Shown: in pieces, positions 7,611 to 63,332 of the stretch
Numbering within the stretch: the stretch's first letter is position 1
Layout of the letters: each line of letters begins with the position of its first letter
Assembly (NCBI RefSeq): GCF_900110085.1
Contig: NZ_FOCK01000005.1
Span: forward strand, 124,001-188,000
Source: Prevotella sp. ne3005
GTDB taxonomy: Bacteria; Bacteroidota; Bacteroidia; Bacteroidales; Bacteroidaceae
Direction: 5' to 3'
DNA length: 64,000 nt
Program-made: the position numbers and the translations under genes
Notes under the pieces: generated by a model
What the model was told of the DNA's origin: nothing
Databases searched by the model: none
The model's input: the letters and a program-made list of their open reading frames with translations, nothing else

Positions 7611-7761
7611 CATTGCCCTTTTCATATTTGCTTCATCATAATTACTCAAAATCTGCTTGATTCTGGGTGTAAAGTTACGAATTATTGATAATTCTTTGTT
7701 TTTTTTGCCCCCAATATTAAAAATAAATCTGAAAAACTGATGCGTTTTCAGAAAATAGTCT

Positions 7762-7769
7762 TACCTTTG
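7762..7769 (+). promoter_or_regulatory. -7 box for the cobalamin riboswitch transcript
   Basis: TACCTTTG in TCTTACCTTTGTAGCG; transcription would begin near 7775. Confidence 0.65.
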
Positions 7770-7777
7770 TAGCGTGA

Positions 7778-8035
7778 TTCTGGAAAGAGTCGCCCGTAAA
7801 GGTGCACTTAGCTGTGCTTAATTGGGAACTGGAGTGTGAATCTCCGACTGTCCCGCAGCAGTGAACTCCGTTATGGCTCCTAAGCATAAACGCCATTAAG
7901 CTTCGCTTGATAGCGTTCACGCTCGACAAAGCTTGAATGCATTCGGCTTTGTTCTCGCTAAATCACGCCATTGCCCATTTGGGTGAGAAGGCGCTTGGGA
8001 GTGGAGGAAAGTCTGAAGACCAGCCTTTTTCGGTA
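7778..8035 (+). ncRNA. Cobalamin (B12) riboswitch with an enlarged variable arm
   Basis: Conserved landmarks appear in order: AATTGGGAACTGGAGTGTGA near 7830, ATCTCCGACTGTCCCGCAGC then AGTGA (the usual CCCGC-AxC-GT core), GCCATTGCCCATTTGGGTGA then GAAGGC near 7966, and AGTCTGAAGACCAGCC closing at about 8035. Between the core and the GCC-GAAGGC part lies an extra arm of roughly 90 nt with two hairpins. The first resembles hairpin repeat family A. The riboswitch presumably represses the flavodoxin-like gene when B12 is plentiful. About 200 nt with no convincing gene separate it from that gene; a GGGG/CCCC-TTTT stretch at 8179-8216 could be the expression platform. Confidence 0.9.
7887..7940 (+). 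repeat. Hairpin repeat family A copy inside the riboswitch arm
   Basis: CGCCATTAAGCTTCGCTTGA then TAGCG folds on itself and is followed by GCTCGACAAAG. It resembles the copies at 8783, 13645 and 15355 (GCC-TTAAGC-CGCTTGAA-GGC, then a GACAAAGTCAA-like stretch), but the match is partial. Confidence 0.5.
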
Positions 8036-8239
8036 ATATGCCAAACGGCTCTCGATGTAAGGGCGTGAGGCGAAACAAACATTTTTGTGGTTTAAATGAA
8101 TCGAAAAGGACTGCCATGTAGTCTCTTTGTTGGTTCTGCGCAGTCATGTGCGCATACGTGTATTATTATATAAGTTCACGGGGTAGCCTGTCGTGAGACA
8201 ACGTTTCCCCTTTTAACGAGTATTCAGAACAATAGAGAT

Positions 8240-8674
8240 ATGAAACATGAATCAATCGTCGTCGTGTACGACAGTTGTCAGGCTATTGCTGAAGAGATAG
8301 CCGACAAGTTGGGTGCTGAGACCGTCAGTGTCCAGAGTATAAACGTCAGGCAGATCGAGAACAGCCAGAGTCTCGTCCTTGCTGTCGAGTTTCTGGATGG
8401 TGGCAACCTGTCACCGCATTGGCAGTATGCCAGTCAGATGTTCCGTTGTGCCAGTCTGAGGGGCAAGAACCTCGCCGTTATGGTGGCTCTTGGCAATAGG
8501 GGCGATAACGGCATCTATGCCGATGTTTTCTGCCGTGAACTCAGGGAGAACGGGGCGCACATCGTTGGTGACTGTCTTTATGCAGATGCTCCGACCTGCA
8601 ATCTCAGTCGCTCGATTTCTGGTCGCTCTAATACATTAGAGAATTGGATCTGTGCCATTTCGCCTAACTTATAA
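8240..8674 (+). CDS. Flavodoxin-like protein under B12 control
   Basis: 144 residues, cytosolic. The order (IVVVYDS-x-AIAEEIADKLGA, a middle LRGKNLAVMVALGNRGDNGI segment, then FCRELRENGAHIVGD) follows a flavodoxin fold. The usual T/S-rich FMN phosphate loop is poorly kept, so FMN binding is uncertain. Near the C-terminus SRSISGRSN is encoded by a copy of hairpin repeat family B. It is the first gene after the cobalamin riboswitch; a role as electron donor for cobalamin or a B12-independent substitute is inference. Confidence 0.7.
   Translation: MKHESIVVVYDSCQAIAEEIADKLGAETVSVQSINVRQIENSQSLVLAVEFLDGGNLSPHWQYASQMFRCASLRGKNLAVMVALGNRGDNGIYADVFCRELRENGAHIVGDCLYADAPTCNLSRSISGRSNTLENWICAISPNL
8607..8632 (+). 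repeat. Hairpin repeat family B copy inside a gene
   Basis: GTCGCTCGATTTCTGGTCGC then TC, in frame near the end of the flavodoxin-like gene. It encodes SRSISGRS, compared with RSTSGRLLP at 12931 and 4898. Confidence 0.6.
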
Positions 8675-8687
8675 AATCATTCTCACT

Positions 8688-8774
8688 ATGCAGTATATCT
8701 TTATCGTAGCCCTTGAATTCGTTCTGGCTTTTATAGGCGTAGCCCTGCTCATCAGGTACTATAACCACAAGTGA
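8688..8774 (+). CDS. 28-residue membrane microprotein
   Basis: MQYIFIVALEFVLAFIGVAL then LIRYYNHK. It is a single transmembrane helix with a basic C-terminal end, starting 13 bp after the flavodoxin-like gene on the same strand. It lies in the same riboswitch-controlled unit. The composition is far from random and argues for a real small membrane protein. Function unknown. Confidence 0.6.
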   Translation: MQYIFIVALEFVLAFIGVALLIRYYNHK

Positions 8775-8782
8775 CAGAGCAG

Positions 8783-8842
8783 CGAGCGCCGTTAAGCTTG
8801 CTTAAACGGCTGAGTCGCGATGGAACTCGACAAAGTCAAGGC
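8783..8842 (+). repeat. Hairpin repeat family A
   Basis: GCGCCGTTAAGCTTGCTTAA then ACGGCTGAGTCGCGA then TGGAACTCGACAAAGTCAAG. The first part folds into a hairpin (GCCGTTAAGC/GCTTAAACGGC). It matches the segments at 13645-13703 and, inverted, 15355-15413. It lies between convergent genes and could also serve as a terminator. Confidence 0.7.
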
Positions 8843-8847
8843 GTAGG

Positions 8848-9513
8848 CTATCTTTTCCTGGCCCTGAAATAAAGCATCGCTCCCTCTACATGGAAGTCGA
8901 GGATGTCATAGTATGGCTCCAGACGTTGACGCACATCGTTTGCTGTATCGAAGGGAGGCGTGAACCAGCCCATGCGGGTCATGACAGTCTTGGCGAGCCA
9001 GTCGGCACCCCTTTGTTCACCCGCAATGTAGAAGCAGGCCAGTAGTTCTCCACCTGGCTTCAAGGTTCGCAGAATCTCAGCATATGCCTTGCCCTTGTTG
9101 GGGAACACATGGAGGCCGTTCATGCAGAGCACGATATCGAAAGTCCCTTCTTCGAAAGGCAGTGCTCCAACGTCGCCTTGCATGGTCTGTATGTTGGAGA
9201 TACCTGTTCCACGGAATCTGTACTCAGCCTGCTCCAACATGTCTTGGCTATAGTCCAGGCAGGTGATGTCGGCTTGCTTCATCTTTCTGTACTTCTCCGT
9301 GGTAAATACAGCCGTACCGACAGGCACATCGAGCAACCGCCCCTTGAAGTCATCGGGAATCCAACTCAATACCCTGCGGGCAATCTCGTTGTCATCGACA
9401 CCGCCCCAAAGTAGTTTGAAATACAATTTGCTCCACCATTTACCTTGTGTAATTGCATCATCGTAGAAACTCTTGCTGAACTTATACGAACTCTTAATCT
9501 TGTCTGCCATCAT
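8848..9513 (-). CDS. Class I SAM-dependent methyltransferase
   Basis: 221 residues, cytosolic. Motif I is LLDVPVGTAVF (a proline in place of the more usual glycine), motif II ITCLDYSQDMLEQA, post-I GDVGALPFEEGTFDIVLCMN, then LKPGGELLACFY. This is the Methyltransf_11/25 pattern of the UbiE-like group. The substrate cannot be read from sequence. A leftward -7 box at 9614-9621 would give a leader of about 100 nt. Confidence 0.85.
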   Translation of the reverse strand: MMADKIKSSYKFSKSFYDDAITQGKWWSKLYFKLLWGGVDDNEIARRVLSWIPDDFKGRLLDVPVGTAVFTTEKYRKMKQADITCLDYSQDMLEQAEYRFRGTGISNIQTMQGDVGALPFEEGTFDIVLCMNGLHVFPNKGKAYAEILRTLKPGGELLACFYIAGEQRGADWLAKTVMTRMGWFTPPFDTANDVRQRLEPYYDILDFHVEGAMLYFRARKR

Positions 9514-9613
9514 TCATATTCTTTTGTTTGACGGTGCAAAGCTCGTGCAAACCGAATGCAGTCAAGTTCACTTGAATTGCTGAGGTGCAGCCGAGTTTCG
9601 CAATTTTCAATTG

Positions 9614-9621
9614 CAAAGGTA
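9614..9621 (-). promoter_or_regulatory. Leftward -7 box for the 8848 methyltransferase
   Basis: TACCTTTG on the minus strand in CGTACCTTTGCAATT. Confidence 0.5.
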
Positions 9622-9650
9622 CGGCGATGTTGCCGCAATCCGGTTGCAAA

Positions 9651-10262
9651 CTATGCCTTCACGCCGATGACAGTCGCATTCGATGGCTTCATACGGTGAA
9701 TCTCGGTGTGGATGAAGCCTGCATCGTCGAGCAGAGTCTTCAGCTCCTCTGGCGAATAGGCAGTCATGCCTTCTACGACATTCGTCCACATGGAGTCGCC
9801 ATCAATTACTTCAACCAGAATGGCGAATTTCCCGCCCTGCTTCAGTACACGGCGCACCTCTTGAAGACAGTCAGGCAGGTTTGGCCAGAAATACACCGTC
9901 TCTACTGCTGTCACGAGGTCGAACTTCCCATCTTCGTAAGGCAACTTTTCGGCAGAACCCTGAGTGATGAATACCCGCTTGTCGAGCACTTTGGCATTCT
10001 CCTTCTTGGCTTTCGCTACGCTTTCCTCAGAGATGTCGATGCCATAGACCGTTGACCCCTCGCTCCGCTTCAGCAGCCGTTGCAAGGTTGCACCGCCACC
10101 ACAGCCGATATCGAGCATCGTCCAGCCGTCCTGAATATTGACCAGTTTCAGTCCCCAGTTCGTCAGCGGTGCATGACAGAGATTCATAAACTTCAGCATC
10201 GCGCGTCCCATCCGTCCTTGCGGACAGGCACAGTTGGTGAAAAACGTTTTTAACAGTCCCAT
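9651..10262 (-). CDS. Class I SAM-dependent methyltransferase
   Basis: 203 residues. Motif I MLDIGCGGGATLQRLL, then VYGIDISEESVAKA, GSAEKLPYEDGKFDLVTAVE and LKQGGKFAILVE. The pattern is UbiE/COQ5-like; the substrate is unknown. It starts three bases after the stop of the small membrane protein upstream, so the two form an operon. The neighbouring methyltransferase at 8848 is only distantly similar. Confidence 0.85.
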   Translation of the reverse strand: MGLLKTFFTNCACPQGRMGRAMLKFMNLCHAPLTNWGLKLVNIQDGWTMLDIGCGGGATLQRLLKRSEGSTVYGIDISEESVAKAKKENAKVLDKRVFITQGSAEKLPYEDGKFDLVTAVETVYFWPNLPDCLQEVRRVLKQGGKFAILVEVIDGDSMWTNVVEGMTAYSPEELKTLLDDAGFIHTEIHRMKPSNATVIGVKA

Positions 10263-10265
10263 GGC

Positions 10266-10652
10266 TTAATCCTTTACATATTTAATGCTATACCATGCCA
10301 GCACGAGGCCTACGATAATCATCATGGGCATGATGACGTATTGCCCAGCATTGTCGGAAGGCAGCTCCATGAACGCATGGGCGATGTTGAACAAGCCGAT
10401 GAGTGCGGCCAGCACGGCATTGATGACTTTCAGAGCTTTCTCTTTCCACAGCATACAGAGCACGCCACAAGCGGGAATAAGATACGAGAGCGTCATCATG
10501 AACACTATCATGCCCTGGTCAACGTTGCCGTCGGTGTCGGCAATGGCCATATTCTTGCCCCAAAACATGGGCAGAACATCACAAATGGAGTGGCAGGCAA
10601 AGCCGCAGACGGTCAGCAGCCACAGAATCGAAATCTTAATACTTCTTGTCAT
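10266..10652 (-). CDS. Four-helix small membrane protein
   Basis: 128 residues with four predicted transmembrane segments at about 7-24, 47-66, 73-93 and 103-122. The N-terminus is basic and inside. Family not recognised. It is the first gene of an operon with the methyltransferase at 9651. A hairpin in the leader at 10692-10714 may act on its expression. Confidence 0.75.
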   Translation of the reverse strand: MTRSIKISILWLLTVCGFACHSICDVLPMFWGKNMAIADTDGNVDQGMIVFMMTLSYLIPACGVLCMLWKEKALKVINAVLAALIGLFNIAHAFMELPSDNAGQYVIMPMMIIVGLVLAWYSIKYVKD

Positions 10653-10691
10653 AGTTGAATATTTAATAAGTTACTATTCTTTTTAAAATAA

Positions 10692-10714
10692 TGGCTGACC
10701 ATCACAGTCAGCCA
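10692..10714 (-). promoter_or_regulatory. Leader hairpin upstream of the membrane protein-methyltransferase operon
   Basis: Perfect 8-bp stem TGGCTGAC/GTCAGCCA with a 7-base loop. In the leftward transcript ATTATTTT follows, about 40 nt before the start codon. It could be an attenuator or a weak terminator. Confidence 0.45.
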
Positions 10715-10740
10715 CCTCATTACTAAACAAATACTATTTA

Positions 10741-10770
10741 TGCGCTCGACCTTTTGGTCGCTTTGCTCGC
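10741..10770 (+). repeat. Hairpin repeat family B, intergenic
   Basis: GCGCTCGACCTTTTGGTCGC then TTTGCTCGC. GCGACC/GGTCGC forms the stem. It lies in the leader of the operon read leftward. Confidence 0.65.
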
Positions 10771-10799
10771 AAAGAATTTTATACCTGTGATTTCGGGTG

Positions 10800-10807
10800 C
10801 AAAGGTA
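10800..10807 (-). promoter_or_regulatory. Leftward -7 box for the 10652 operon
   Basis: TACCTTTG on the minus strand in CATACCTTTGCACCC; the leader is about 140 nt. Confidence 0.6.
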
Positions 10808-11047
10808 TGACAAATTAACAAGATGCACAATACCTAAAACGCGGTGTTTTGAGCATTGCCCACCTGTGACGGCCAGCAAAAGCAGATTAACATGAAGTAG
10901 GTATTTTGTTTTGTATAGCAATTCTTTTGTTCTTGTTTTTCTGCAAAAAACTATTTTTTATGTATTTTTTCTGTAGAAAAAGGGCTTGAAAAACTGTTCT
11001 CAAATGTACAGTCATCTGAGCCGACAGAAGAGAAAGAACAAGATCCA

Positions 11048-11317
11048 GTGAAAGATGATTCTGCCGCTGACGAGAATCATACAAAGAGAGGCCGCCCGGC
11101 CTTACACAATAAAGTAATCAGATTCTGCACGATGGCAGATGATGACAAGGTTACACAGATTAGGACGATAGCCGCCAGAGAGGGTATTGCAATCAAGGAT
11201 TTGATGAACCTTGCCTTTGACAAAATTATCAATGAGTATGAAAGGAAATACGGGACAGTCAGGCTCCCGAAAGTCAAGAAAGGCGGCGATGTTTCCAAGG
11301 TCTTTGACCTTTCCTGA
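11048..11317 (+). CDS. Small AT-hook/RHH-like DNA-binding protein, start uncertain
   Basis: 89 residues from a GTG at 11048. KRGRPALHNK is an AT-hook-like motif near residue 13. The C-terminal part, with IAAREGIAIKDLMNLAFDKI, resembles ribbon-helix-helix or plasmid-partition accessory proteins. The frame is open upstream (EKGLEKLFSNVQSSEPTEEK) with no ATG, so this may be the 3' part of a longer, truncated gene. Function by resemblance only. Confidence 0.55.
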   Translation: MKDDSAADENHTKRGRPALHNKVIRFCTMADDDKVTQIRTIAAREGIAIKDLMNLAFDKIINEYERKYGTVRLPKVKKGGDVSKVFDLS

Positions 11318-11323
11318 TCTTCA

Positions 11324-11350
11324 GGGAATCTCATATGAGGTTCCCTTTTT
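11324..11350 (+). terminator. Terminator, probably bidirectional
   Basis: AGGGAA-TCTCATATGAG-GTTCCCT then TTTT. It lies between convergent genes ending at 11317 and 11350. Confidence 0.65.
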
Positions 11351-11586
11351 CATATGTAGAATACGAACTTTGAGCCCTTTGAACCTTCCCCGTCATAATC
11401 GGCTGGTATCGGGAACTGACAGCAAAGGTCACTGATAGCTTCCTCTTCAAGGGAAACTGTCAGTTCAAGGACAATAGCCATGCGCCTTTCGTCATAGGCC
11501 AGATTCCATAAACATTCACCCTGAACGGCATTGACTACCGTTCTGATTTCATCCTGAGTGCGCCAAATGGAATCGAAGTCAGTCAT
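11350..11586 (-). CDS. Small hypothetical protein, paralogue of 4528
   Basis: 78 residues starting MTDFDSIWRTQDEIRTVVNA. It aligns along its whole length with the protein at 4528-4800, but without that protein's 14-residue repeat-derived insertion. Acidic, cytosolic. Its start overlaps the end of the next upstream gene by 8 bp, indicating translational coupling. Function unknown. Confidence 0.7.
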   Translation of the reverse strand: MTDFDSIWRTQDEIRTVVNAVQGECLWNLAYDERRMAIVLELTVSLEEEAISDLCCQFPIPADYDGEGSKGSKFVFYI

Positions 11587-11887
11587 AGTATTCTATTGGG
11601 AGTTCTTCGCTGACATTGAAATCGTCGTGGAAGCCGTCATCGTACTTATAGACGATTTGCATTCCGCGATAGGTCGAAGGTACTTTTAGCACCTCCAGCA
11701 AATGCCACTTGGGGCGGCCAAAATCGTAGGACTCTCTGTCGAGAATGATACGATTGGAAACAAAGTCGAAGTGATAATATCCTCCACCGATACACTGGTC
11801 GCCTGGCTTCAGCAAATGTTTATGCTGGTTTACCTGGCCCAAACGGAATACCCCATCTATTGTTATTATGAACTTTGGTAGTGTCAT
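11579..11887 (-). CDS. Hypothetical beta-rich protein
   Basis: 102 residues from the ATG at 11887 (a GTG lies three codons upstream). Contains FRLGQVNQHKHLLKPGDQCI, GGGYYHFDF and DFGRPKWHLLEVL, which suggest a small beta-barrel. Family not recognised. It overlaps the following gene (11350-11586), so the two products may act together. Confidence 0.65.
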   Translation of the reverse strand: MTLPKFIITIDGVFRLGQVNQHKHLLKPGDQCIGGGYYHFDFVSNRIILDRESYDFGRPKWHLLEVLKVPSTYRGMQIVYKYDDGFHDDFNVSEELPIEYYD

Positions 11888-11903
11888 GCGATGCACAGGC
11901 TAT

Positions 11904-12104
11904 TTATTCCTTTGTTAATTTGTATACTGCTATTGTGGGTATAATGACCAGTAGCAATAGCAAAATCTCCACTAATGCGTAGGATCCGAAATAGTCAACC
12001 AATGTCTGGAATTTCAGAATACCATCTACCAGTATGACTAAAACAGCAAACCAGCATAGACAGAATATAGCAGAATACTTGATTTTACGCTTCTTTAGTT
12101 TCAT
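11904..12104 (-). CDS. Small two-helix membrane protein
   Basis: 66 residues with a very basic N-terminus (KLKKRKIK) and two hydrophobic segments at about 10-27 and 38-60. It sits in a run of leftward genes. No family recognised. Confidence 0.6.
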   Translation of the reverse strand: MKLKKRKIKYSAIFCLCWFAVLVILVDGILKFQTLVDYFGSYALVEILLLLLVIIPTIAVYKLTKE

Positions 12105-12155
12105 TCGTTGACGTAGTTCTTGATTGACATATTATAATACAAAGCCCAAATCCAC

Positions 12156-12581
12156 TCATAACAATCCTGATACAATATCGCCATGACGTTTCTCGTCGTT
12201 CTTCACGCTCTCCACCTCGGGGAAGTCTGCAATTAGGTGTTCATAACCAACGGCAGCATCGTACTCTCCCTTTGCAATCATCTTATAGAGGCGCTTCTTG
12301 CCTAACAGACAGTAAAGAATAGGCATGATTCGAGCCATCGTTTTCTTGGGTTTCAAAGCCTTTTGGGTATAGGCATGGAACACGCTGGCATGACGACCTT
12401 CTTCCTTTGCCAACTGAAGGAAAGCCTCACGCTCCTTATCCGTCTTAACCACTTTAGCCAGTCTCTGGTACATCAGCACAGCGTCAAGTTCGCCCTGCTG
12501 ACTACGCAATAGTTCTTCGCGATATTTGCCTCTTTGGCTTACGCCGTTTCTCCGTTCTTCGGAGACACTCAAATGTGTCAT
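12156..12581 (-). CDS. Ferritin-like / rubrerythrin-type diiron protein
   Basis: 141 residues. QQGELDAVLMYQRLAK and EEGRHASVF form the first EX-EXXH half-site. GEYDAAVGYEHLI and DEKRHGDIV form the second. This is the rubrerythrin/VIT-like four-helix diiron fold, usually linked to peroxide or iron handling, but it lacks the C-terminal rubredoxin. The first 20 residues (SVSEERRNGVSQRGK) do not look like the family and have the character of a repeat-derived extension. A -7 box (TATATTTG) lies at 12609-12616. Confidence 0.8.
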   Translation of the reverse strand: MTHLSVSEERRNGVSQRGKYREELLRSQQGELDAVLMYQRLAKVVKTDKEREAFLQLAKEEGRHASVFHAYTQKALKPKKTMARIMPILYCLLGKKRLYKMIAKGEYDAAVGYEHLIADFPEVESVKNDEKRHGDIVSGLL

Positions 12582-12608
12582 ATTACTAAACTATTCTAAA
12601 TTTGGGCG

Positions 12609-12616
12609 CAAATATA
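12609..12616 (-). promoter_or_regulatory. Leftward -7 box for the diiron protein
   Basis: TATATTTG on the minus strand. It forms a divergent pair with the box at 12639-12646. Confidence 0.6.
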
Positions 12617-12638
12617 CGAATAATCAAGGAATTATGAG

Positions 12639-12646
12639 TAACTTTG
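12639..12646 (+). promoter_or_regulatory. Rightward -7 box for the DUF4250 operon
   Basis: TAACTTTG, 27 bp upstream of the ATG at 12673. Confidence 0.6.
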
Positions 12647-12672
12647 TCCTTTGATTTAATAGTATTTGTGAA

Positions 12673-12873
12673 ATGGACTACCTTCCCAAAGACCCTGCCA
12701 TTCTGGTTTCGAGCGTAAATATGCTTCTGCGTGACGAGGAGTTTGACACGCTGGAATCACTATGCTATGCCTTCAGCATAGAATCCAAGGAAATCAAGGA
12801 CTATCTCATGAAGTATGGCTTCGTATGGAGTGAGCCTCAGAAACAATTCAGACCCATCGGCTACGATCAATGA
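12673..12873 (+). CDS. DUF4250-like protein
   Basis: 66 residues. LPKDPAILVSSVNMLLRDEE followed by a short helical part and KYGFVWSEPQKQF matches the small DUF4250 family (LPKDPxxLLSxVNxxLRDxY). Function unknown. Its stop overlaps the start of the next gene (ATGA), so the two are coupled. Confidence 0.75.
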   Translation: MDYLPKDPAILVSSVNMLLRDEEFDTLESLCYAFSIESKEIKDYLMKYGFVWSEPQKQFRPIGYDQ

Positions 12874-32349: not shown

Positions 32350-33150
32350 TTATTCTTCAATGAGTTTGTTGTCGGCCTCGAGCGCTCCCCAGATGTTATA
32401 GCGCACCTCCGGGTTCATCTGCTCCAGGGCGTCGTAGAGTTGTTTGATGTCCGTGCGATGCGAGTTGGTCTCGTAGGGACAGAGTTTCTGCTGTTTCTGA
32501 TACCCTTGCATCTCGGCCCACGTCTTGATGTCGCTCTCAGGAATGAGGCAAAGCGGGCGGATGATGGTGAGCGGCATCTTGCGCATCTTCAGACGGGCGG
32601 GCATCGTGGCGAAGTGAGCCTGATAGGTGAGGTTCATCAGTGCCGTATGGATGAGGTCGTCCTGATGATGCCCGAGGGCAATCTTGTTACAGCCGAGTTC
32701 CTGTGCGAGGTTGAAGAGCTGTTTGCGCCGATTCCACGAACAGAGGAAACAGGGCTGCTTTTGTTTTCTTTTTATTGAAGATTGCTCAGCTGTACGCTCG
32801 TTGCTTTCAATTTTCAATTTTCCATTTTCAATAGTTTCAAACCTCGTCGTTCTGATGTGGAGGGGAACGCCTAGATCGTCGCAGAACTGCTGCAGATAAC
32901 TGGTGTCCGTCTCGTAATGGATATTCTCCATCCGCACATGGATCGCTTCGACGCTGAATCGCGGGTGCTGGATCTTGGCGCGCTTCGCCAGCAGTTCCGT
33001 CAGCAGTAGTGAGTCCTTGCCTCCAGAGAGTCCCACGAGTATCTTGTCATCATCTTCTATCAGATGATAAGTAGCCATCGCCTTGACGAACCGCTCTTTC
33101 AAACGCTTCTCCAGGCGACGGCTCTCCATATCCGATACTGAGGAAATCAT
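32350..33150 (-). CDS. TtcA-family ATP-pyrophosphatase with a repeat-encoded insertion
   Basis: 266 residues. PP-loop LSGGKDSLLL near 41-50, CFLCSWNRRKQLF with the CxxC pair, GHHQDDLIHTALMNL and a C-terminal CPYE Cys are features of the TtcA (tRNA 2-thiocytidine) group. Just before CFLC, about 25 residues (IENGKLKIESNERTAEQ then SSIKRKQKQ) do not look like the family. Their DNA is the TTGAAAA/TTGAAGA heptamer repeat found between genes elsewhere. Probably still functional, because the insertion lies in a loop. Confidence 0.85.
   Translation of the reverse strand: MISSVSDMESRRLEKRLKERFVKAMATYHLIEDDDKILVGLSGGKDSLLLTELLAKRAKIQHPRFSVEAIHVRMENIHYETDTSYLQQFCDDLGVPLHIRTTRFETIENGKLKIESNERTAEQSSIKRKQKQPCFLCSWNRRKQLFNLAQELGCNKIALGHHQDDLIHTALMNLTYQAHFATMPARLKMRKMPLTIIRPLCLIPESDIKTWAEMQGYQKQQKLCPYETNSHRTDIKQLYDALEQMNPEVRYNIWGALEADNKLIEE
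32808..32836 (-). repeat. Heptamer repeat (TTGAAAA type) inside the TtcA-family gene
   Basis: Plus strand TTTCAATTTTCAATTTTCCA then TTTTCAATAG: tandem seven-base units, read leftward as ATTGAAAA TGGAAAA TTGAAAA TTGAAAG. In frame it encodes IENGKLKIES. Confidence 0.7.
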
Positions 33151-33184
33151 AAAGCTTAAAGCTTAATGCTCAAAGCTCAAAGCC
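33147..33184. repeat. Heptamer repeat (RAGCTTW type)
   Basis: ATAAAGCTTAAAGCTTAATG then CTCAAAGCTCAAAG: seven-base units AAGCTTA, ATGCTCA, AAGCTCA. It lies between the TtcA-family gene and the reductase gene and covers the latter's stop codon. Confidence 0.7.
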
Positions 33185-35540
33185 CCCTCAGGTGCTTATC
33201 CATGTTCAATGCTGCACGACGACCATCGCCCATGGCGAGGATCACGGTAGCACCACCACGCACGATATCACCTCCGGCGAAGATCTCAGCGCGCGAAGAC
33301 TGCATGTCGTCGTTGACGGCAATCGTGTTCTTGCGTCCGAGCTCGAGACCCTGAATAGACTTCGGTACGAGCGGGTTGGGAGATACACCAACGGCTACGA
33401 TCACCTGATCCACATCGAGCGTCACTGTCTTACCCTCTACGGGCACAGGACTGCGACGACCTGATGCATCGGGCTCGCCCAGCTCCATCACCTGCAGCAC
33501 GGCCTGCTTTACGGCACCCTGCTCGTCGGCGATATACTCGATAGGATTATGAAGCGTCAGGAAGTTGATACCCTCCTCCTTAGCGTGCTTCACCTCCTCC
33601 AGACGGGCGGGCATCTCTACCTCAGAACGACGGTAGACGAGTGTTACCTCAGCACCCAGACGCTTAGCCGTACGGCAAGAGTCCATAGCGGTGTTACCAC
33701 CACCCACCACGAGCACGCTCTTGGCAGGATTCAGCGGGGTATCGGTCTTCGGGTTGGCAGCATCCATCAGGTTCACACGGGTCAGATACTCGTTACTTGA
33801 CATGATGTTGATTGAGTTCTCACCGGGGATATTCATGAAGTTAGGCAGACCAGCACCCGAGCCAACGAAGATACCCTTGAAGCCCTGAGCCTCCAGCTGC
33901 TCCACGCTGATGGTCTTACCCACAATCACGTCGGTCTGGAAATGAACACCCATCTTAGCAAGATTCTCAATCTCCACATCCACGATCTTATTCGGCAGAC
34001 GGAACTCGGGGATACCATACTTCAGCACACCACCGATCTCGTGCAGCGCCTCAAACACATACACATCGTAACCCTTCTTCACCATATCGCCAGCAAAGCT
34101 CAGACCAGCAGGACCAGAACCCACTACGGCGATCTTAATGCCGTTGGCTGGTGCAATCTCAGGCAGAGAGATATTGCCGCTCTCGCGCTCGAAGTCTGCT
34201 GCGAAACGCTCCAGATAACCGATGGCCACAGCGGGCTCGTTCATCTTCAGGTGGATACACTTGCTCTCGCACTGCTTCTCCTGCGGACATACACGACCGC
34301 AGACGGCGGGTAGGGCAGAGGTGTTCTTCAGCACCTTAGCCGCAGCCAGGAACTGACCGCGCTCGATATTCTTGATGAACGACGGGATATTGATGTTCAC
34401 TGGACAGCCCTCTACACAGCTGGGCTTGGCGCAGTCGAGACAACGCTTGGCCTCTGTCATAGCCATCTCCTTGGTCAGACCGATATTCACCTCCTCCGTA
34501 CGAGTAGTGGCACGATAGACGGGGTCGAGCTCGGGCATGATCACGCGCTCAATCTGCGTGCGCTCCTTCGGCTTCATGCTCTTTCTGAGCTCATCGCGCC
34601 AAGCAGCGTTTCTGTCCGTCAGCACCTCGATGGTATCGTTCGTAGGATCGCTGTCCATCACCACGTCAGTGGTCTTCGAACTTTCCATCTTCAATTTTCC
34701 ATCTTCAATCGAATCCAGATGCTCCTCGTAGTGGGCCAGCTCCTCCTGCTCCTCGCGCTTGAAGGTTCCCATACGCTTGAACATCTCGTCCCAATCCACG
34801 AGGGCGCCGTCAAACTCAGGACCATCGATGCAGACGAACTTCGTCTTACCGCCAATCGTCAGTCGGCAGGCACCACACATACCCGTACCATCCACCATGA
34901 TGGTGTTCAGGCTGACCTCGCAGGGGATGTTATGCTTCTGGGCGGTGAGGTTAGAGAACTTCATCATGATTGGAGGACCGATGGCAAACACCTTGTCGAC
35001 ATGCGGCTCCTGCTCAATGAACTTCTCGATACCAACGGTCACCACGCCTTTCTCGCCGTAGCTACCGTCATCGGTCATGATGATCACCTCGTCAGAACTC
35101 TCGCGCACCTTATCCTCCAGGATAATCAGATCCTTCGAACGACCAGCCATCACTGAGAGCACGCGGTTGCCGGCAGCCTTCAGAGCCTGGATAATCGGCA
35201 GCATCGGGGCTACACCGAGTCCACCACCGGCACAAACCACTGTGCCGTATTTCTCAATCTTCGTCGGATTACCCAGCGGACCAACCACGTCGGTCACATA
35301 GTCGCCTACGTTGAGGGCGCAGAGCTTCTTCGAAGAGAGTCCCACCATCTGGACCACCAGTGTGATGGTACCTTTCTCGATGTCGGCGGCGGCAATGGTC
35401 AGTGGCATGCGCTCACCTTTCTTTCCTACGCGCACAATGACGAAGTTACCGGCTTTGCGGCTCTTGGCAATCAGTGGCGCCTCAATCTCGAAAAGGAACA
35501 CCTTTTCCGAGAACTGCTCTTTTCTTACGATCTTGTTCAT
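33177..35540 (-). CDS. NfnAB-type fused ferredoxin-NADP reductase/glutamate synthase-like flavoprotein
   Basis: 787 residues. Residues of about 1-280 form an FNR-like FAD/NAD module: VVCAGGGLGVAPMLPI, then CGACRLTIGGKTKFVCIDGP for a 2Fe-2S cluster. Residues of about 320-785 are the GltD-like part: CLDCAKPSC with two 4Fe-4S motifs, VVGSGPAGLSFAGDM for FAD, VVGGGNTAMDSCRTAKRLGA for NADPH. Such fusions replace separate NfnA and NfnB or the glutamate synthase small subunit and may carry out NADPH-linked electron bifurcation. The inter-domain linker contains IEDGKLKMESS, encoded by a heptamer repeat. Confidence 0.92.
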   Translation of the reverse strand: MNKIVRKEQFSEKVFLFEIEAPLIAKSRKAGNFVIVRVGKKGERMPLTIAAADIEKGTITLVVQMVGLSSKKLCALNVGDYVTDVVGPLGNPTKIEKYGTVVCAGGGLGVAPMLPIIQALKAAGNRVLSVMAGRSKDLIILEDKVRESSDEVIIMTDDGSYGEKGVVTVGIEKFIEQEPHVDKVFAIGPPIMMKFSNLTAQKHNIPCEVSLNTIMVDGTGMCGACRLTIGGKTKFVCIDGPEFDGALVDWDEMFKRMGTFKREEQEELAHYEEHLDSIEDGKLKMESSKTTDVVMDSDPTNDTIEVLTDRNAAWRDELRKSMKPKERTQIERVIMPELDPVYRATTRTEEVNIGLTKEMAMTEAKRCLDCAKPSCVEGCPVNINIPSFIKNIERGQFLAAAKVLKNTSALPAVCGRVCPQEKQCESKCIHLKMNEPAVAIGYLERFAADFERESGNISLPEIAPANGIKIAVVGSGPAGLSFAGDMVKKGYDVYVFEALHEIGGVLKYGIPEFRLPNKIVDVEIENLAKMGVHFQTDVIVGKTISVEQLEAQGFKGIFVGSGAGLPNFMNIPGENSINIMSSNEYLTRVNLMDAANPKTDTPLNPAKSVLVVGGGNTAMDSCRTAKRLGAEVTLVYRRSEVEMPARLEEVKHAKEEGINFLTLHNPIEYIADEQGAVKQAVLQVMELGEPDASGRRSPVPVEGKTVTLDVDQVIVAVGVSPNPLVPKSIQGLELGRKNTIAVNDDMQSSRAEIFAGGDIVRGGATVILAMGDGRRAALNMDKHLRGL
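34683..34712 (-). repeat. Heptamer repeat (TTGAAGA type) in the linker of the reductase gene
   Basis: Plus strand TTCCATCTTCAATTTTCCAT then CTTCAATCGA. Read leftward ATTGAAGA TGGAAAA TTGAAGA TGGAAAG, in frame IEDGKLKMES. Confidence 0.7.
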
Positions 35541-35548
35541 TTTAATTA

Positions 35549-35966
35549 TTGAATATTGAAGATTGAATATTGAAAATTAATTCAACGATTCTTTCTTCGT
35601 TTTTATTATTTTCACTAATGTAGCGACAATCCGAGTGCAATCAGCATAGATAGAATTATATTCTGTTTCACTGATAAAACCAGATTCATATAAGAGTTCA
35701 AGCCAGTACTGAGTTTCATTTGCTTCTTTAAGAGCTATACTTAGCTTGTTTATAAAGTCCATTGCGCTTTGAGCATTGATACTCTCACGTGCGTTTGCTC
35801 CGATACTTGTACCGCTTCTTAACAATTGCTTCGACATTACATACTCTTGCTTTACATCCTTCAGATATGTGTAGAGTTTGATGATACGAAGTGCAAAAGC
35901 CTTGCTGATTACTTGTATCGTATTATCTTCACGCATGAATATTCAATTTTCAATCTTCAATTTTCA
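35549..35966. mobile_element. Repeat-flanked four-helix-bundle gene cassette
   Basis: Left flank (35549-35580, plus strand) TTGAATATTGAAGATTGAAT then ATTGAAAATT. Right flank (35939-35966) read on the minus strand TTGAAAATTGAAGATTGAAA then ATTGAATATT. The flanks are imperfect inverted repeats built of seven-base units and enclose only the IVS-type gene. Solo copies of the same repeat lie in two neighbouring enzymes and at 55674. Mobility as a unit is inference. Confidence 0.5.
35577..35936 (-). CDS. Four-helix-bundle protein (23S rRNA intervening-sequence / S23 type)
   Basis: 119 residues, all helical. SKQLLRSGTSIGANARESIN, DFINKLSIALKEANETQYWL and ELLYESGFI form the S23/IVS signature. Such proteins are encoded in 23S rRNA intervening sequences and, as stand-alone genes, widely in Bacteroidota; they resemble the Avd protein of diversity-generating retroelements. 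Function unknown. Its stop and its upstream border both touch heptamer repeats, and it sits between two unrelated core genes. Confidence 0.88.
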   Translation of the reverse strand: MREDNTIQVISKAFALRIIKLYTYLKDVKQEYVMSKQLLRSGTSIGANARESINAQSAMDFINKLSIALKEANETQYWLELLYESGFISETEYNSIYADCTRIVATLVKIIKTKKESLN

Positions 35967-37283
35967 ATCAATCACGTCGCAGCCCATGTAGGGTACGAGG
36001 GCGGCGGGCACCTTGATGCCGTTCTCCGTCTGATTGTTCTCCAGCAACGCGGCCACGATGCGCGGCAGAGCCAGAGCCGAACCGTTCAGCGTGTGACAGA
36101 GCTCGGGCTTCTTGCTTCCCTCAGGACGGAAACGGCACTTCAGACGGTTGGCCTGATACGTGTCGAAATTCGAAACCGACGAAACCTCCAGCCAACGACC
36201 CTGTGCCTCTGAGTACACCTCGAAGTCATAGCAGATGGCAGAAGTGAAACTCTGGTCACCACCGCACAACAAGAGAATACGATACGGCAGTTCGAGCTTC
36301 TTCAACAGTCCCTCCACGTGCGCCAGCATCTCCTTATGGCTCTCCTTCGAATGCTCGGGCTTGTCGATGCGCACAATCTCAATCTTCGAGAACTCGTGCA
36401 GACGGTTCAGTCCGCGCACATCCTTACCATACGAGCCTGCCTCACGACGGAAACACTGTGTGTAAGCACAATTCTTGATGGGCAGATCCTTCTCGTCGAG
36501 GATCACGTCACGATAGATATTCGTCACAGGCACCTCGGCCGTAGGAATCAGGTAGAAATCGTCCACCTCGCAGTGGTACATCTGACCCTCCTTATCGGGC
36601 AGCTGACCCGTACCGTAACCTGAAGCCTGGTTCACCACCGTAGGCGGCATGATCTCCGTATAGCCAGCCTTGCGGGCCTCGTCGAGGAAGAAATTGATCA
36701 GCGCACGCTGCAGACGGGCACCCTTGCCGATATACACTGGGAATCCTGCACCTGTGATCTTCACGCCGAGGTCGAAGTCAATCAGGTTATACTTCTTGGC
36801 GAGCTCCCAGTGGGGCAGGGGATTGGCGATACCCAGCGAGGGGTTCACATCCCAGTTGCCTACGGTATCAGCGTCCGTACACTCCTTCAGGTTCGACTTC
36901 ACCACATGGTTATCCTCAGCGGCCTTGCCCTCAGGCACCTCGTCGTAGGGGATATTAGGAATCTGACAGAGCAGGGTGGTCATCTCCTCCTGAGCCTGAG
37001 CCATCGTCTCGTCGAGCTGCTTCGACTTCTCCTTGAGTGCAGCCACCTGAGCCTTCACCTGCTCGGCCTCGTCTTTCTTGCCTTCCTTCATCAGTCGGCC
37101 AATCTGTCCCGACAACTGCTTCTGCTCGTTCAGGCTCTTGTCTAACTCCTGCTGGGCCTCACGGCGCTTCTTGTCTACTGCGAGCACACCATCGATAGCC
37201 TCCTTGGCGTTGGGGAAATGTTTCTTCTCCAGACCACGGATCACGCGCTCGGTTTCCTCATTAATAAGTTTGAGTGTTAACAT
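35964..37283 (-). CDS. serS: Seryl-tRNA synthetase
   Basis: 439 residues. The N-terminal coiled-coil tRNA-binding arm spans about 30-105. The class II catalytic core has motif 2 TQCFRREAGSYGKDVRGLNR and motif 3 LNGSALALPRIVAALLENNQ. Attaches Ser to tRNA-Ser. The -7 box TAACTTTG lies at 37325-37332. Its stop codon falls at the edge of the heptamer repeat flanking the IVS-type gene. Confidence 0.97.
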   Translation of the reverse strand: MLTLKLINEETERVIRGLEKKHFPNAKEAIDGVLAVDKKRREAQQELDKSLNEQKQLSGQIGRLMKEGKKDEAEQVKAQVAALKEKSKQLDETMAQAQEEMTTLLCQIPNIPYDEVPEGKAAEDNHVVKSNLKECTDADTVGNWDVNPSLGIANPLPHWELAKKYNLIDFDLGVKITGAGFPVYIGKGARLQRALINFFLDEARKAGYTEIMPPTVVNQASGYGTGQLPDKEGQMYHCEVDDFYLIPTAEVPVTNIYRDVILDEKDLPIKNCAYTQCFRREAGSYGKDVRGLNRLHEFSKIEIVRIDKPEHSKESHKEMLAHVEGLLKKLELPYRILLLCGGDQSFTSAICYDFEVYSEAQGRWLEVSSVSNFDTYQANRLKCRFRPEGSKKPELCHTLNGSALALPRIVAALLENNQTENGIKVPAALVPYMGCDVID

Positions 37284-37332: not shown

Positions 37333-37378
37333 CGAATAAATGAGAGAAAAACCAAATGAATAAGGATTTTTTCTTTAA

Positions 37379-37495
37379 GATTTAAGCATTAAGCATTAAG
37401 CTTTATGATTACAATGTTTTTTTTCTTTAAGCTTTAATGCTTAAAGCTCAAAGCTTAAAGCTCAAAGCTCAAAGCTTAAAGCTCAAAGCTCAAAA
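37379..37495. repeat. Heptamer repeat arrays (RAGCTTW type)
   Basis: Two blocks. 37379-37412 has AAGCATT units ending in CTTTATGATTAC. 37427-37495 has about nine units of AAGCTTA/AAGCTCA. The CTTTATGATTAC end also closes the arrays at 38321 and 63265. Confidence 0.75.
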
Positions 37496-37496
37496 A

Positions 37497-37532
37497 GAAA
37501 TCCCGCTACTCCTTGCGGAGTGCGGGACCCTG
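37497..37532 (-). terminator. Terminator of rplU-rpmA
   Basis: Read leftward CCCGCACTCC-GCAA-GGAGTAGCGGG then ATTTCTTTTT; strong stem with a single mismatch. Confidence 0.8.
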
Positions 37533-37577
37533 TTGTTTGTTTGGAATAAGTTTCTTTTTAATGTTTGGTGATCATCA

Positions 37578-37606
37578 TGCTCAAAGCTTAAAGCTCAAAG
37601 CTCAAT
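37578..37606. repeat. Heptamer repeat (RAGCTTW type) after rpmA
   Basis: ATGCTCAAAGCTTAAAGCTC then AAAGCTCAA. Confidence 0.65.
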
Positions 37607-37610
37607 GACC

Positions 37611-37874
37611 TTAGGCTTCAGCGTTGGGGATTACTGAAACGACGCTCTTATCGCGCTTGCCCTTGTGGAAGTTGACAGTACCGTCAACGAGCGCATACAG
37701 CGTGTCGTCCTTACCGATTGCTACGTTGTTGCCAGGGTTGTGCTTCGTGCCGCGCTGACGAACGATAATGTTACCAGCCACGCACTGCTGACCACCGAAG
37801 ATCTTGATGCCAAGTCGCTGAGCTGCTGACTCACGGCCGTTCTTAGAACTACCTACACCTTTTTTATGTGCCAT
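37611..37874 (-). CDS. rpmA: 50S ribosomal protein L27
   Basis: 87 residues. [20 protein letters not shown] then LGIKIFGGQ and ILVRQRG-like [16 protein letters not shown]. It lacks the N-terminal cleaved extension known in Firmicutes. Binds near the peptidyl-transferase centre. Twenty bases downstream of rplU, the usual pairing. Confidence 0.97.
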
Positions 37875-38320: not shown

Positions 38321-38357
38321 TGAGCTTTAAGCATTAAGCATTAATCTTTATGATTAC
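38321..38357. repeat. Heptamer repeat (RAGCTTW type)
   Basis: TTGAGCTTTAAGCATTAAGC then ATTAATCTTTATGATTAC. Confidence 0.65.
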
Positions 38358-39041: not shown

Positions 39042-39404
39042 TTAGCAGCCTAGCATCGCGGCTGGGGTTATACCAAGCGTTGCGCATAGCATACGGGCGA
39101 TTTTAAGCGTAGGCTCTGCACGTCCGGAGATGTAATCACTAATTCGCGACTGACTTACTCCAATCTCTTCTGCCAGTTGCTTCTGGCTCATGTTCTTTTC
39201 ATCAAGCGACAATTGAATGAGTTGAGCAACAGTTGGCTTGGCGATAGGGTAGTGCTCTTTTTCATACTCTATCACCACGTCCGACATCATTGTCAGCTCG
39301 ATGGCATTGCGATCGTTTGCAGGTGTGTTGTCATCTACCAATGGCAGCAGTTCTTCAATTCGTGCCAATGCAAACTCGTATTTCTCCTTTGTAATCTTAC
39401 TCAT
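39042..39404 (-). CDS. higA: HigA-type antitoxin (XRE HTH)
   Basis: 120 residues. The C-terminal HTH_3 is VAQLIQLSLDEKNMSQKQLA then EEIGVSQSRISDYISGRAEP. The N-terminal acidic helical part probably wraps the toxin. It neutralises the partner and represses the operon. It follows the toxin gene, the usual HigBA order. Confidence 0.88.
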   Translation of the reverse strand: MSKITKEKYEFALARIEELLPLVDDNTPANDRNAIELTMMSDVVIEYEKEHYPIAKPTVAQLIQLSLDEKNMSQKQLAEEIGVSQSRISDYISGRAEPTLKIARMLCATLGITPAAMLGC

Positions 39405-39422: not shown

Positions 39423-39722
39423 TTATATTGATGCTGCATCTATCTTGTCATATTCGCTGTGGGTTCCAACAAATCGGATGAATACATGCCCAATTGTGAA
39501 CTTAACCACTACTATCAAGCGATATTTATTCCCCTTGATGTTAAATACGTAATGCTGGTTGCCAACGTAGTCAGTAGCAGGGAAATCAACCTTGATATCC
39601 GACAGATTCTTCCACTCTGCCTTTTCGGCTATGTCATACCAGCGTTCGAGAGCTGCCTGAGAGTCTCCATGCCCTTCAGAGCTGTAGAACTCCACTAACC
39701 GTCTATGTGATACTATTCTCAT
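39423..39722 (-). CDS. higB: HigB-type mRNA interferase toxin
   Basis: 99 residues from the ATG at 39722 (MRIVSHRRLVEFYSS). ALERWYDIAEKAEWKNLSDI, DYVGNQHYVFNIKGNKYRLI and VKFTIGHVFIRFVGTHSEYD are the HigB/RelE-type fold; family members cleave mRNA at the ribosome. The -7 box at 39731-39738 leaves a leader of only a few bases. Confidence 0.88.
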   Translation of the reverse strand: MRIVSHRRLVEFYSSEGHGDSQAALERWYDIAEKAEWKNLSDIKVDFPATDYVGNQHYVFNIKGNKYRLIVVVKFTIGHVFIRFVGTHSEYDKIDAASI

Positions 39723-39730
39723 TTCGGGGG

Positions 39731-39738
39731 CAAAGGTA
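39731..39738 (-). promoter_or_regulatory. -7 box of higBA
   Basis: TACCTTTG on the minus strand; near-leaderless start. Confidence 0.6.
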
Positions 39739-39876
39739 AATAATAATTTTGAAATTCGCAAGTTTTTACGGGATTATTTTTGTTTTTCAAATAATTTATC
39801 TACCCTTGCTATCTCTTGGGAGGTTTCACACCTCCCACCGCTAAGGCATCCTTTGGTGGTGTTTTTCATAACATAA

Positions 39877-55402: not shown

Positions 55403-55678
55403 ATGGAAGCAAAGATTTTAAGAGTGATGAAGTGCGGTGAGTGCTTCGCAGTGAAGAGTGAGAAGAGTGAGGGTGGGGTGCTGAATAAGCGCACACTGGT
55501 GTTGCAAGAGTTGGGCGGTAAGTTTGAACCGACCTACACAGTGGCAGCCTTGGGTAATTTGGCGACACTGCAGTTCAACGAGGGTGACATCGTGATAGCC
55601 ACTCTCCGATTCCAGAGTCGTGAGTTTAACGGACAGTCGTTTATGGATGTTGTAGCGACGGAAATTATTAAGCATTGA
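55403..55678 (+). CDS. Small OB-fold-like protein
   Basis: 91 residues. YTVAALGNLATLQFNEGDIV then IATLRFQSREFNGQSFMDVV is similar in pattern to DUF3127-type OB folds (GDxVxVxxxxxSREYNGRxxxD). Single-stranded DNA binding is plausible next to a DUF3987 gene. The stop codon lies at the start of a heptamer repeat. Confidence 0.6.
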   Translation: MEAKILRVMKCGECFAVKSEKSEGGVLNKRTLVLQELGGKFEPTYTVAALGNLATLQFNEGDIVIATLRFQSREFNGQSFMDVVATEIIKH

Positions 55679-55735
55679 AAATTGAAGATTGAAAATTGAA
55701 AATTTGAAATTGAGCTTTGAGTATTAAAGATTAAA
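55674..55735. repeat. Heptamer repeats, both types joined
   Basis: ATTGAAAATTGAAGATTGAA then AATTGAAAATTTGAAATT (TTGAAAA type) passing into GAGCTTTGAGTATTAAAG (RAGCTTW type). Confidence 0.75.
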
Positions 55736-58541: not shown

Positions 58542-58571
58542 GTCATGTGTCATGAGTGTCATTAAGCTTTG
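58542..58571 (+). repeat. Right copy of the 30-bp direct repeat
   Basis: GTCATGTGTCATGAGTGTCA then TTAAGCTTTG; partner of 41317-41346. It runs into a heptamer array. Confidence 0.7.
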
Positions 58572-58644
58572 AGCATTAAGCATTAAGCTTTAGGCATGAA
58601 GTAATCATAAAGCTTAAAGCTAAAAGAATAAAGATTAAAGAAAA
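58562..58644. repeat. Heptamer repeats in two orientations
   Basis: AAGCTTTGAGCATTAAGCAT then TAAGCTTTAGG, and after a 10-bp centre GTAATCATAAAGCTTAAAGC then TAAAAG. The GTAATCATAAAG end is the complement of the CTTTATGATTAC end seen in other arrays, so this is a head-to-head pair. Confidence 0.7.
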
Positions 58645-63271: not shown

Positions 63272-63332
63272 ACTTTGAGCTTTGAACTTTGAGCTTTAAG
63301 CATTAAGCATTAAGCTTTGAGCTTTATGATTA
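63265..63332. repeat. Heptamer repeat array between lpxC/fabZ and lpxA
   Basis: CATACTTTGAGCTTTGAACT then TTGAGCTTTAAGCATTAAGC, ATTAAGCTTTGAGCTTTATG, ATTAC. About seven units, ending in CTTTATGATTAC as in the arrays near rpmA. Confidence 0.75.

Follow-up and report, generated by a model that had tools for sequence, protein, structure and literature searches.

An S23-family gene bounded by inverted heptamer arrays, a probable transposase-less mobile cassette of many bacterial phyla

The window, a 64,000-nt stretch of the Prevotella sp. ne3005 genome, holds a small gene of the S23/IVP family whose two ends are set in inverted arrays of a seven-nucleotide unit, and the question it raises is whether gene and arrays form one element and, if so, of what kind. 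The family is very common: of 296 genomes sampled from the window's phylum (taken as Bacteroidota), each of them at least 90% complete, 235 have a match to PF05635. The protein is described as without known function, and the origin of the 23S rRNA intervening sequences (IVSs) as unclear, in the parts of PMC4990558 used here. We argue that the window feature is probably one copy of a widespread mobile cassette that lacks a transposase and consists of an S23/IVP gene ended by inverted heptamer arrays. The layout around many S23 members in many phyla, together with one clear case in which gene and repeats have moved as one, suggests that a type of small mobile element has been overlooked, and a simple rule (an S23 gene, its own inverted heptamer ends, and matching arrays elsewhere) ties together S23 genes, 23S rRNA IVSs and heptamer repeats and makes each directly testable.

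The window cassette

The whole cassette, arm plus S23 ORF plus arm, spans 35545-35972 on the minus strand (~428 nt) between serS and nfnAB. Its ORF (35577-35936, minus strand) encodes 119 aa that match PF05635 at 91.3 bits (cut-off 33.8) and TIGR02436 at 106.5 bits (cut-off 24), making the protein a member of the S23/IVP family, and its AlphaFold2 model (mean pLDDT 91.3), with a best PDB match to 2rld (TM 0.90) and a further match to 2gsc (TM 0.83), predicts the four-helix fold of the solved members. A first delimitation of the arms gave 35548-35581 and 35935-35968, 34 nt each and 88% complementary; local alignment, which we take as best, places the downstream arm at 35545-35578 and the upstream arm at 35938-35972, both on the minus strand. 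A reading made from the sequence alone had proposed that inverted TTGAAAA/TTGAAGA arrays flank the S23 gene, and this is confirmed, with limits slightly off the 35541-35966 that it gave. The upstream arm carries TTGAARA heptamers on the S23 coding strand, its G-rich side, and the downstream arm carries them inverted; both contain four TTGAA cores at a spacing of exactly 7. Runs of at least two such cores number four in the window, whereas each of 20 order-2 Markov simulations gave 0-2.

Both neighbours are co-directional with the S23 gene. Upstream lies serS (35964-37283, minus strand), whose last codons and stop codon (35964-35966) fall inside the upstream arm; downstream lies an NfnAB-type fusion gene (33177-35540, minus strand), and the S23 stop codon, said by the sequence-only reading to lie in an array, touches the downstream arm, which reaches up to it. 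These two names were given by eye or by that reading, as gene names here mostly were by eye, on simple ORF calling and one genome per species. Besides the S23 ORF, no reading frame of at least 60 aa fits between the arms, so the cassette holds no transposase gene, and no reverse transcriptase is apparent beside it, its neighbours being serS and nfnAB.

The repeat itself occurs elsewhere, as had also been noticed. A solo array of the same TTGAARA unit stands at 55673-55713 (plus strand; placed at 55674 before), and copies in coding frame lie in two neighbouring ORFs, 32350-33150 (IENGKLKIESNE; the stretch at 32804-32836, minus strand, has two perfect cores) and 33177-35540 (IEDGKLKMESSK; a heptamer-like stretch near 34673-34709). 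Across the source genome, a three-unit TTGAARA pattern has 239 matches (overlaps counted) and its reversed control has 0. The array as such is therefore not special to S23, an idea we reject, and what is special is the inverted pair around the gene. Solo arrays between co-directional genes share the polarity of S23 upstream arms 37 times and oppose it 11 times, among 427 such gaps.

Several further features were seen in the window. A second heptamer family, AGCTTTR/AGCATTA, occupies 33150-33186, 37373-37412, 37434-37500, 37577-37611, 38323-38352, 58565-58601 and 63273-63331, with a convergent pair at 37373-37500; its unit is absent from both armed S23 genes of the source genome. The NfnAB linker at 34673-34709, compared with its counterpart in a related species (L116), is a variable linker with heptamer-like stretches that uses different units in the two species at little changed length. 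An HTH protein (39042-39404) beside a HigB-type toxin family protein (39423-39761; PF09907, 112.5 bits) is a probable toxin-antitoxin pair.

Inverted arms are enriched at S23 genes

Arm scores were obtained by local alignment of the 120 nt upstream of a gene with the reverse complement of its downstream flank, with a threshold of 14 that was set on the genus set after the data had been seen and then reused for the other sets; the genus and many-phyla counts omit genes closer than 130 nt to the end of a stretch. The genus set comprised 51 stretches: the window, ten of the source genome, and forty from sixteen other genus genomes, taken from a score-ordered list that leans to multi-copy, well-assembled genomes and is thus no random draw. 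Eight of the ten source-genome stretches were picked for array richness, which makes the control harder. Inverted arms reached the threshold at 40 of 50 S23 genes (including one identical pair, L092) and at 17 of 799 other genes in the same stretches, while the direct-orientation score did so at 4/50 and 18/799. The enrichment at S23 genes over other genes that the sequence-only reading anticipated is therefore borne out in the genus, and it recurs in a many-phyla set formed from the best 80 of at least 569 confirmed loci from named genomes, in which the best-scoring loci are over-represented. There, 56 of these best 80 S23 loci carry inverted arms (53/74 when only complete flanks are counted), compared with 12/320 other genes of the same best 80 loci, or 8/143 among genes of 80-200 aa. 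By record titles the set covers Akkermansia, Fibrobacter, spirochaetes, Clostridia, Acidobacteria, Omnitrophota, Chloroflexi, candidate phyla and others.

Not every S23 gene is armed, and each of the following counts against the mobile-cassette reading. Ten of the 50 genus genes fall below threshold, three of them with direct-orientation arrays. Beyond the genus but within the window's phylum, 12 of the 30 S23 loci listed have arms and 18 of those listed fall below threshold, many with weak arms by eye. Two phage S23s have none (scores 7.0 and 8.5). No heptamer arms were recognised by eye at the source genome's third S23-like protein (L035:9210-9896, the same as L003). That protein has 228 aa, an S23-like domain just under the cut-off at 31.7 bits and a coiled-coil-like tail, and is perhaps a domesticated S23; a diversity-generating retroelement (DGR) beside it was considered and rejected, since asparaginase, UxaC and outer-membrane families adjoin it and no reverse transcriptase appears among the three neighbours scanned.

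S23 matches also occur in 34 plasmid records. Among six cyanobacterial plasmid S23s examined, four have clear arms, one a weak pair (14.5) and one none (L317, 8.0), the last also counting against the mobile-cassette reading. Two plasmid cassettes of cyanobacteria lie inside cas operons, one between cas6 and cas4 (L314) and one between cas10 and a cmr3-like gene (L318). A figure legend in PMC10910872 names the 23S rRNA IVP among CRISPR-linked families, a listing that such cassettes may explain. Genes annotated as 'four helix bundle protein' inside operons, cas operons included, may accordingly be passengers and not parts of the system. Two other arrangements were encountered: three S23 copies within 6 kb at 83-86% DNA identity by blastn, their arms interrupted by small palindromes (L103, genome G094, 7046-12741), and an S23 gene (L047) that keeps matching arms although a TAG interrupts its frame in the conserved core.

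Arms match their own partners and keep one polarity

Arms fit the partner at the other end of the same gene: 121 of 176 true pairs reach the threshold, pairs lacking full flanks having been excluded, against 19 of 874 permuted pairs. Arms have a median length of 37 nt, the upstream one ending a median of 19 nt before the ATG, and their autocorrelation is 0.50/0.47/0.44 at lags 7/14/21, with all remaining lags between 2 and 20 giving 0.25-0.37. A period of 7 dominates in the genus, with some arms of 8 and 9. The unit varies from element to element (AGTTAAGG, GTCGTTTA, GAGTTGAC, GGTGAGA and more in other S23s of the genus), so a single constant unit for the family is rejected. Polarity, in contrast to the unit, hardly varies. 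Of 58 genus cases, 54 have an upstream arm richer in G than in C (3 reversed, 1 even); they come from a set of 80 entries and 72 sequences that does not include L003, its duplicate L002 or L073, which has no usable frame. The G excess also holds in 56 of 56 many-phyla loci, again from the best 80 of at least 569. Stop-codon content of the upstream arms seems slightly raised at most (hand estimate). The class has a 7-nt unit (8-9 nt in some members), a nearly fixed polarity and a location mostly in tight junctions between co-directional genes.

Cassette presence differs between species

The sequence-only reading had named conserved synteny as a finding that would speak against it. To follow the window site, 30 nfnAB loci from relatives and the source genome itself were taken with ~1.5 kb on each side (49/60 genomes matched; the gap to serS measurable in 20). 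An S23 gene is present at serS-nfnAB in only two of the 30, the source genome and G008, with an arm unit common to both; synteny is not conserved, and S23 is rejected as a standing member of this neighbourhood. Six relatives whose NfnAB starts are 94-100% identical have empty sites with gaps of 16-21 nt. At one of these serS ends in GATTGATTAA, at the filled site in GATTGATTGAAAATTG, and the heptamer array may grow from a matching serS end at the insertion site. Comparison of filled and empty serS-nfnAB sites by eye revealed no recognisable target-site duplication. The sdhA-sdhB site behaves similarly: in 30 loci, the gap (stop codon counted) is 5-24 nt in 21 and 58-201 nt in three, and six hold an S23 cassette.

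Related cassettes also occur at unrelated places. The S23 proteins of G106, G007 and G109, three species, are 84-92% identical and lie at three different sites, in gene clusters resembling sugar-nucleotide clusters; aligned homology extends from the upstream arm to the downstream arm or, in two of them, to tandem copies of the downstream arm. These three cassettes at three sites support mobility as a unit, and with it the first half of the earlier suggestion of a small mobile or repeat-propagating system. In L296 and L303, tandem copies of a unit comprising the downstream arm and the closing portion of the S23 frame follow the S23 gene.

The pace of movement appears modest. Among 93 distinct genus S23s, 47 have a site of their own and 46 share ten sites (judged by homology of both flanks); related S23s thus often share a site, and movement is not frequent. 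The S23 cassettes have yielded neither a target duplication nor an excision product nor a mobilising enzyme, and both this and the infrequent movement weigh against the mobile-cassette reading. The proteins are under purifying selection, with dN 0.016-0.18 and dS from 0.43 to saturated in ten pairs, and the closest of the G106, G007 and G109 proteins differ by dN 0.05 and dS ~1.7.

Units differ at shared sites, and array type correlates with S23 clade

Shared sites reveal a further behaviour of the arms. At sdhA-sdhB, 16 cassettes with homologous flanks and S23 proteins of one clade carry four different units (grouped by eye), each at both ends and some weak (scores 13.5-29.5); a seventeenth member of the clade sits at another site. 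At a second shared site, species differ between ATTGAAC and ATTGACC, and here too the two ends of a cassette carry the same unit. Such differences imply either that both ends are rewritten together or that the site is taken over in turn by related cassettes with different ends.

Genome-wide, the kind of array follows the kind of S23 protein. In 150 genomes, TTGAA arrays (at least 20 matches) occur in 7/10 with a clade A S23 and 14/140 without (p=3.6e-5), and in 5/35 with a clade B S23 and 16/115 without (p=1.0); AGTTAAGG arrays (at least 1 match) occur in 16/35 with clade B and 13/115 without (p=2.9e-5), and in 3/10 with clade A and 26/140 without (p=0.41), all by Fisher tests that overstate independence because the species are related. 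Arrays thus appear to follow their cognate clade and not the other, in a correlation with kinship uncontrolled. Clade A (10 genomes, identity of 67% or more) was drawn at a break in the scores once the array counts were known; clade B was limited at 1e-30, fixed together with its array search; the array cut-offs of 75, 20 and 1 matches were chosen after seeing counts; and the AGTTAAGG counts in G087 include the arms of the S23 cassette itself. Three of the 10 clade A genomes have fewer than 20 TTGAA matches, and G080 and G130 have AGTTAAGG arrays with no clade B S23. Two observations count against the mobile-cassette reading: G049, G101, G063 and G066 have 146-464 TTGAA matches and no clade A S23, and the second S23 of the source genome has the arm unit GGTTAGCG, arrays of which find no match elsewhere in that genome. 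The repeat-propagating half of the earlier suggestion therefore stands as a correlation, favoured by arrays that follow their cognate clade and weakened by this second S23 and by the array-rich genomes lacking the matching clade.

Some dispersed arrays form compact elements of their own. In G087, G130, G015 and G080 (L352-L363), convergent AGTTAAGG arrays surround a conserved core of ~30-80 nt, with 12 copies aligned; a pattern search for them used a minimum gap that was too long and missed those with short cores. No S23 frame was present in these stretches. The inner motif AAGCCAAATG is common to these mini-elements and the S23 cassette of G087. The mini-elements have the look of non-autonomous relatives of the clade B cassettes. 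Five G130 copies have different flanks by eye; some of the G087-type copies seem embedded in a longer repeat and may thus have spread for a different reason.

Mobile cassette, RNA element or by-product

The mobile-cassette reading draws on the architecture, its enrichment and polarity, presence and absence between species, related like-armed cassettes at different sites, and the correlation of array type with clade. By the mechanism we propose, the S23 protein, which has an Avd-like fold and, as one of two solved structures in the family, forms a homopentamer in the Xanthomonas crystal, would recognise its own heptamer array and recruit host replication or recombination enzymes, the cassette coding for no transposase or reverse transcriptase of its own. 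One arm would be copied from the other at the DNA level, by whatever presumed route, and this would keep the cassette ends matching. Solo arrays, whose origin we infer, and the array-core-array mini-elements would then be non-autonomous relatives. The TRAP ring reads triplets, one per subunit; an S23 ring that read one heptamer per subunit is by analogy an attractive picture only.

A bolder extension, which we hold tentatively and think rather doubtful, is that S23 drives bacterial heptanucleotide repeats in general. Each S23 would read the array of its own unit and copy arrays into junctions between genes, in cis at cassette ends and in trans as solo arrays and mini-elements, with host enzymes only, and S23-bearing IVSs, the STRR, GGGAATC and TAACTGA repeats and 'four helix bundle protein' genes would belong to one transposase-less class of many phyla with self-renewing, unit-switching ends.

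The strongest rival, unlikely in our judgement, places the function in RNA: arms would pair in the transcript, the S23 message would be looped out, cut by RNase III or controlled in translation, as happens in 23S rRNA IVSs, S23 would be an RNA-binding autoregulator with solo arrays as its targets, and the stem would be under selection. Several observations are consistent with this. The window cassette RNA is predicted to fold at -101.9 kcal/mol (z -3.6) with its arms paired; the upstream arm ends close to the start codon, at the median distance given above; S23 genes are co-directional with both neighbours in 43/49 cases, compared with 376/737 for other genes, so that transcription of the host operon may still matter; and RNase III cleaves the Coxiella IVS in vitro, with the cut at its first heptamer, as stated in the portion of PMC4990558 used. 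A selected RNA stem should, however, favour G-U among arm mismatches, and over 139 arms G-U (189) does not exceed A-C (206; p=0.42), the counts in a first, smaller genus set being 77 and 64. We therefore reject selection on an RNA stem as the main cause of complementary arms, whose matching looks instead like DNA-level copying or recent common origin. Two cyanobacterial S23 cassettes that run antisense to both neighbours also speak against an RNA-level element.

Somewhat less likely still, the arms could be a passive by-product, in which polymerase slippage expands arrays, foldback template switching homogenises inverted copies, and an S23 gene with some cellular function merely sits in array-rich junctions and moves by ordinary gene exchange. 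Arrays are abundant without S23, heptamer-like stretches occur even in the variable protein linker of NfnAB, and foldback copying would explain both the matched arms and the missing G-U bias. What this account leaves unexplained is the nearly 40-fold excess of inverted arms at S23 genes over others in the genus stretches, the arm polarity and the match of clade to unit. We give little credence to a retroelement-like origin, in which a reverse transcriptase acting in trans would copy cassette or arrays through RNA with S23 in the role of Avd: the modelled fold resembles Avd (4dwl, 8ub7), the part of PMC10053308 used ranks PF05635 first among the families next to DGR components, and A-A, conceivably a trace of adenine mutagenesis, is the commonest single arm mismatch type in the genus set (54/328), but no reverse transcriptase is apparent beside the window cassette or among the three scanned neighbours of the third S23-like protein.

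Comparison with known systems

The mobile-cassette reading borders on four known kinds of element. The resemblance to Avd of DGRs raised by the sequence-only reading holds at the level of predicted fold, since the window S23 model aligns with the Avd structures 4dwl (TM 0.73-0.80) and 8ub7 (TM 0.70-0.80) as a four-helix bundle; unlike with Avd, no reverse transcriptase is apparent beside the cassette. With pairs of insertion sequences and MITEs it shares an ORF-bearing cassette accompanied by short array-core-array copies with common end sequences. It differs from them in having no transposase, and hence is no insertion sequence, in ending in variable tandem arrays in place of a fixed terminal repeat, and in the absence of a recognised target duplication.

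The window repeat fits the class of heptanucleotide tandem repeats (STRR, GGGAATC, TAACTGA), tandem 7-nt units found mostly in gaps between aligned genes. Rehm et al. (PMC4692102), in the sections considered here, describe GGGAATC heptamers in Xanthomonas and GGGGA(C/T)T in Nostoc. On the sense strand the G-rich repeats stand shortly downstream of stop codons, on the antisense strand shortly upstream of ORFs, and two Xanthomonas genomes contain 70 and 75 convergent pairs; this placement fits the polarity of S23 arms and solo arrays. The TAACTGA repeats of Beggiatoaceae (PMC4679880, likewise in part) are tandem heptamers of the same sort, and both sets lie mostly in intergenic gaps near stop or start codons, as ours do. 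Whereas the available text of these two papers ties the repeats to no gene family or mobile element (PMC4692102 stating generally no such tie to mobile elements and identifying no role in gene regulation, and the term 'S23' having 0 matches in either text), each S23-linked unit goes with an S23 clade and forms the ends of S23 cassettes. A search of the open literature, with subscription papers and preprints outside its scope, yielded no report of a link between S23 genes and inverted heptamer arrays.

The closest relative is the 23S rRNA IVS. As described in the parts of PMC4990558 drawn upon, that of Coxiella burnetii is 428 nt long and has a terminal stem of 28 bp, with tandem GACAGAT heptamers preceding its S23 ORF, and earlier suggestions cited there regard IVSs as transposition remnants or mobile elements. 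The window cassette shares with it, so far as that description goes, the S23 ORF with complementary, stem-forming inverted terminal repeats around it, the heptamers upstream of the ORF, the length (~428 nt against 428) and the sporadic presence. It differs in lying between two protein genes and not in an rRNA gene, which by strict membership makes it no IVS. A search of 313 loci for seven short 23S rRNA motifs, two being required per locus, gave no match. The wider S23 cassette class differs from the Coxiella IVS, on the same partial account, in its many heptamer units and in the like arrays dispersed through the genome. S23-bearing 23S rRNA IVSs are most likely a special case of this cassette class.
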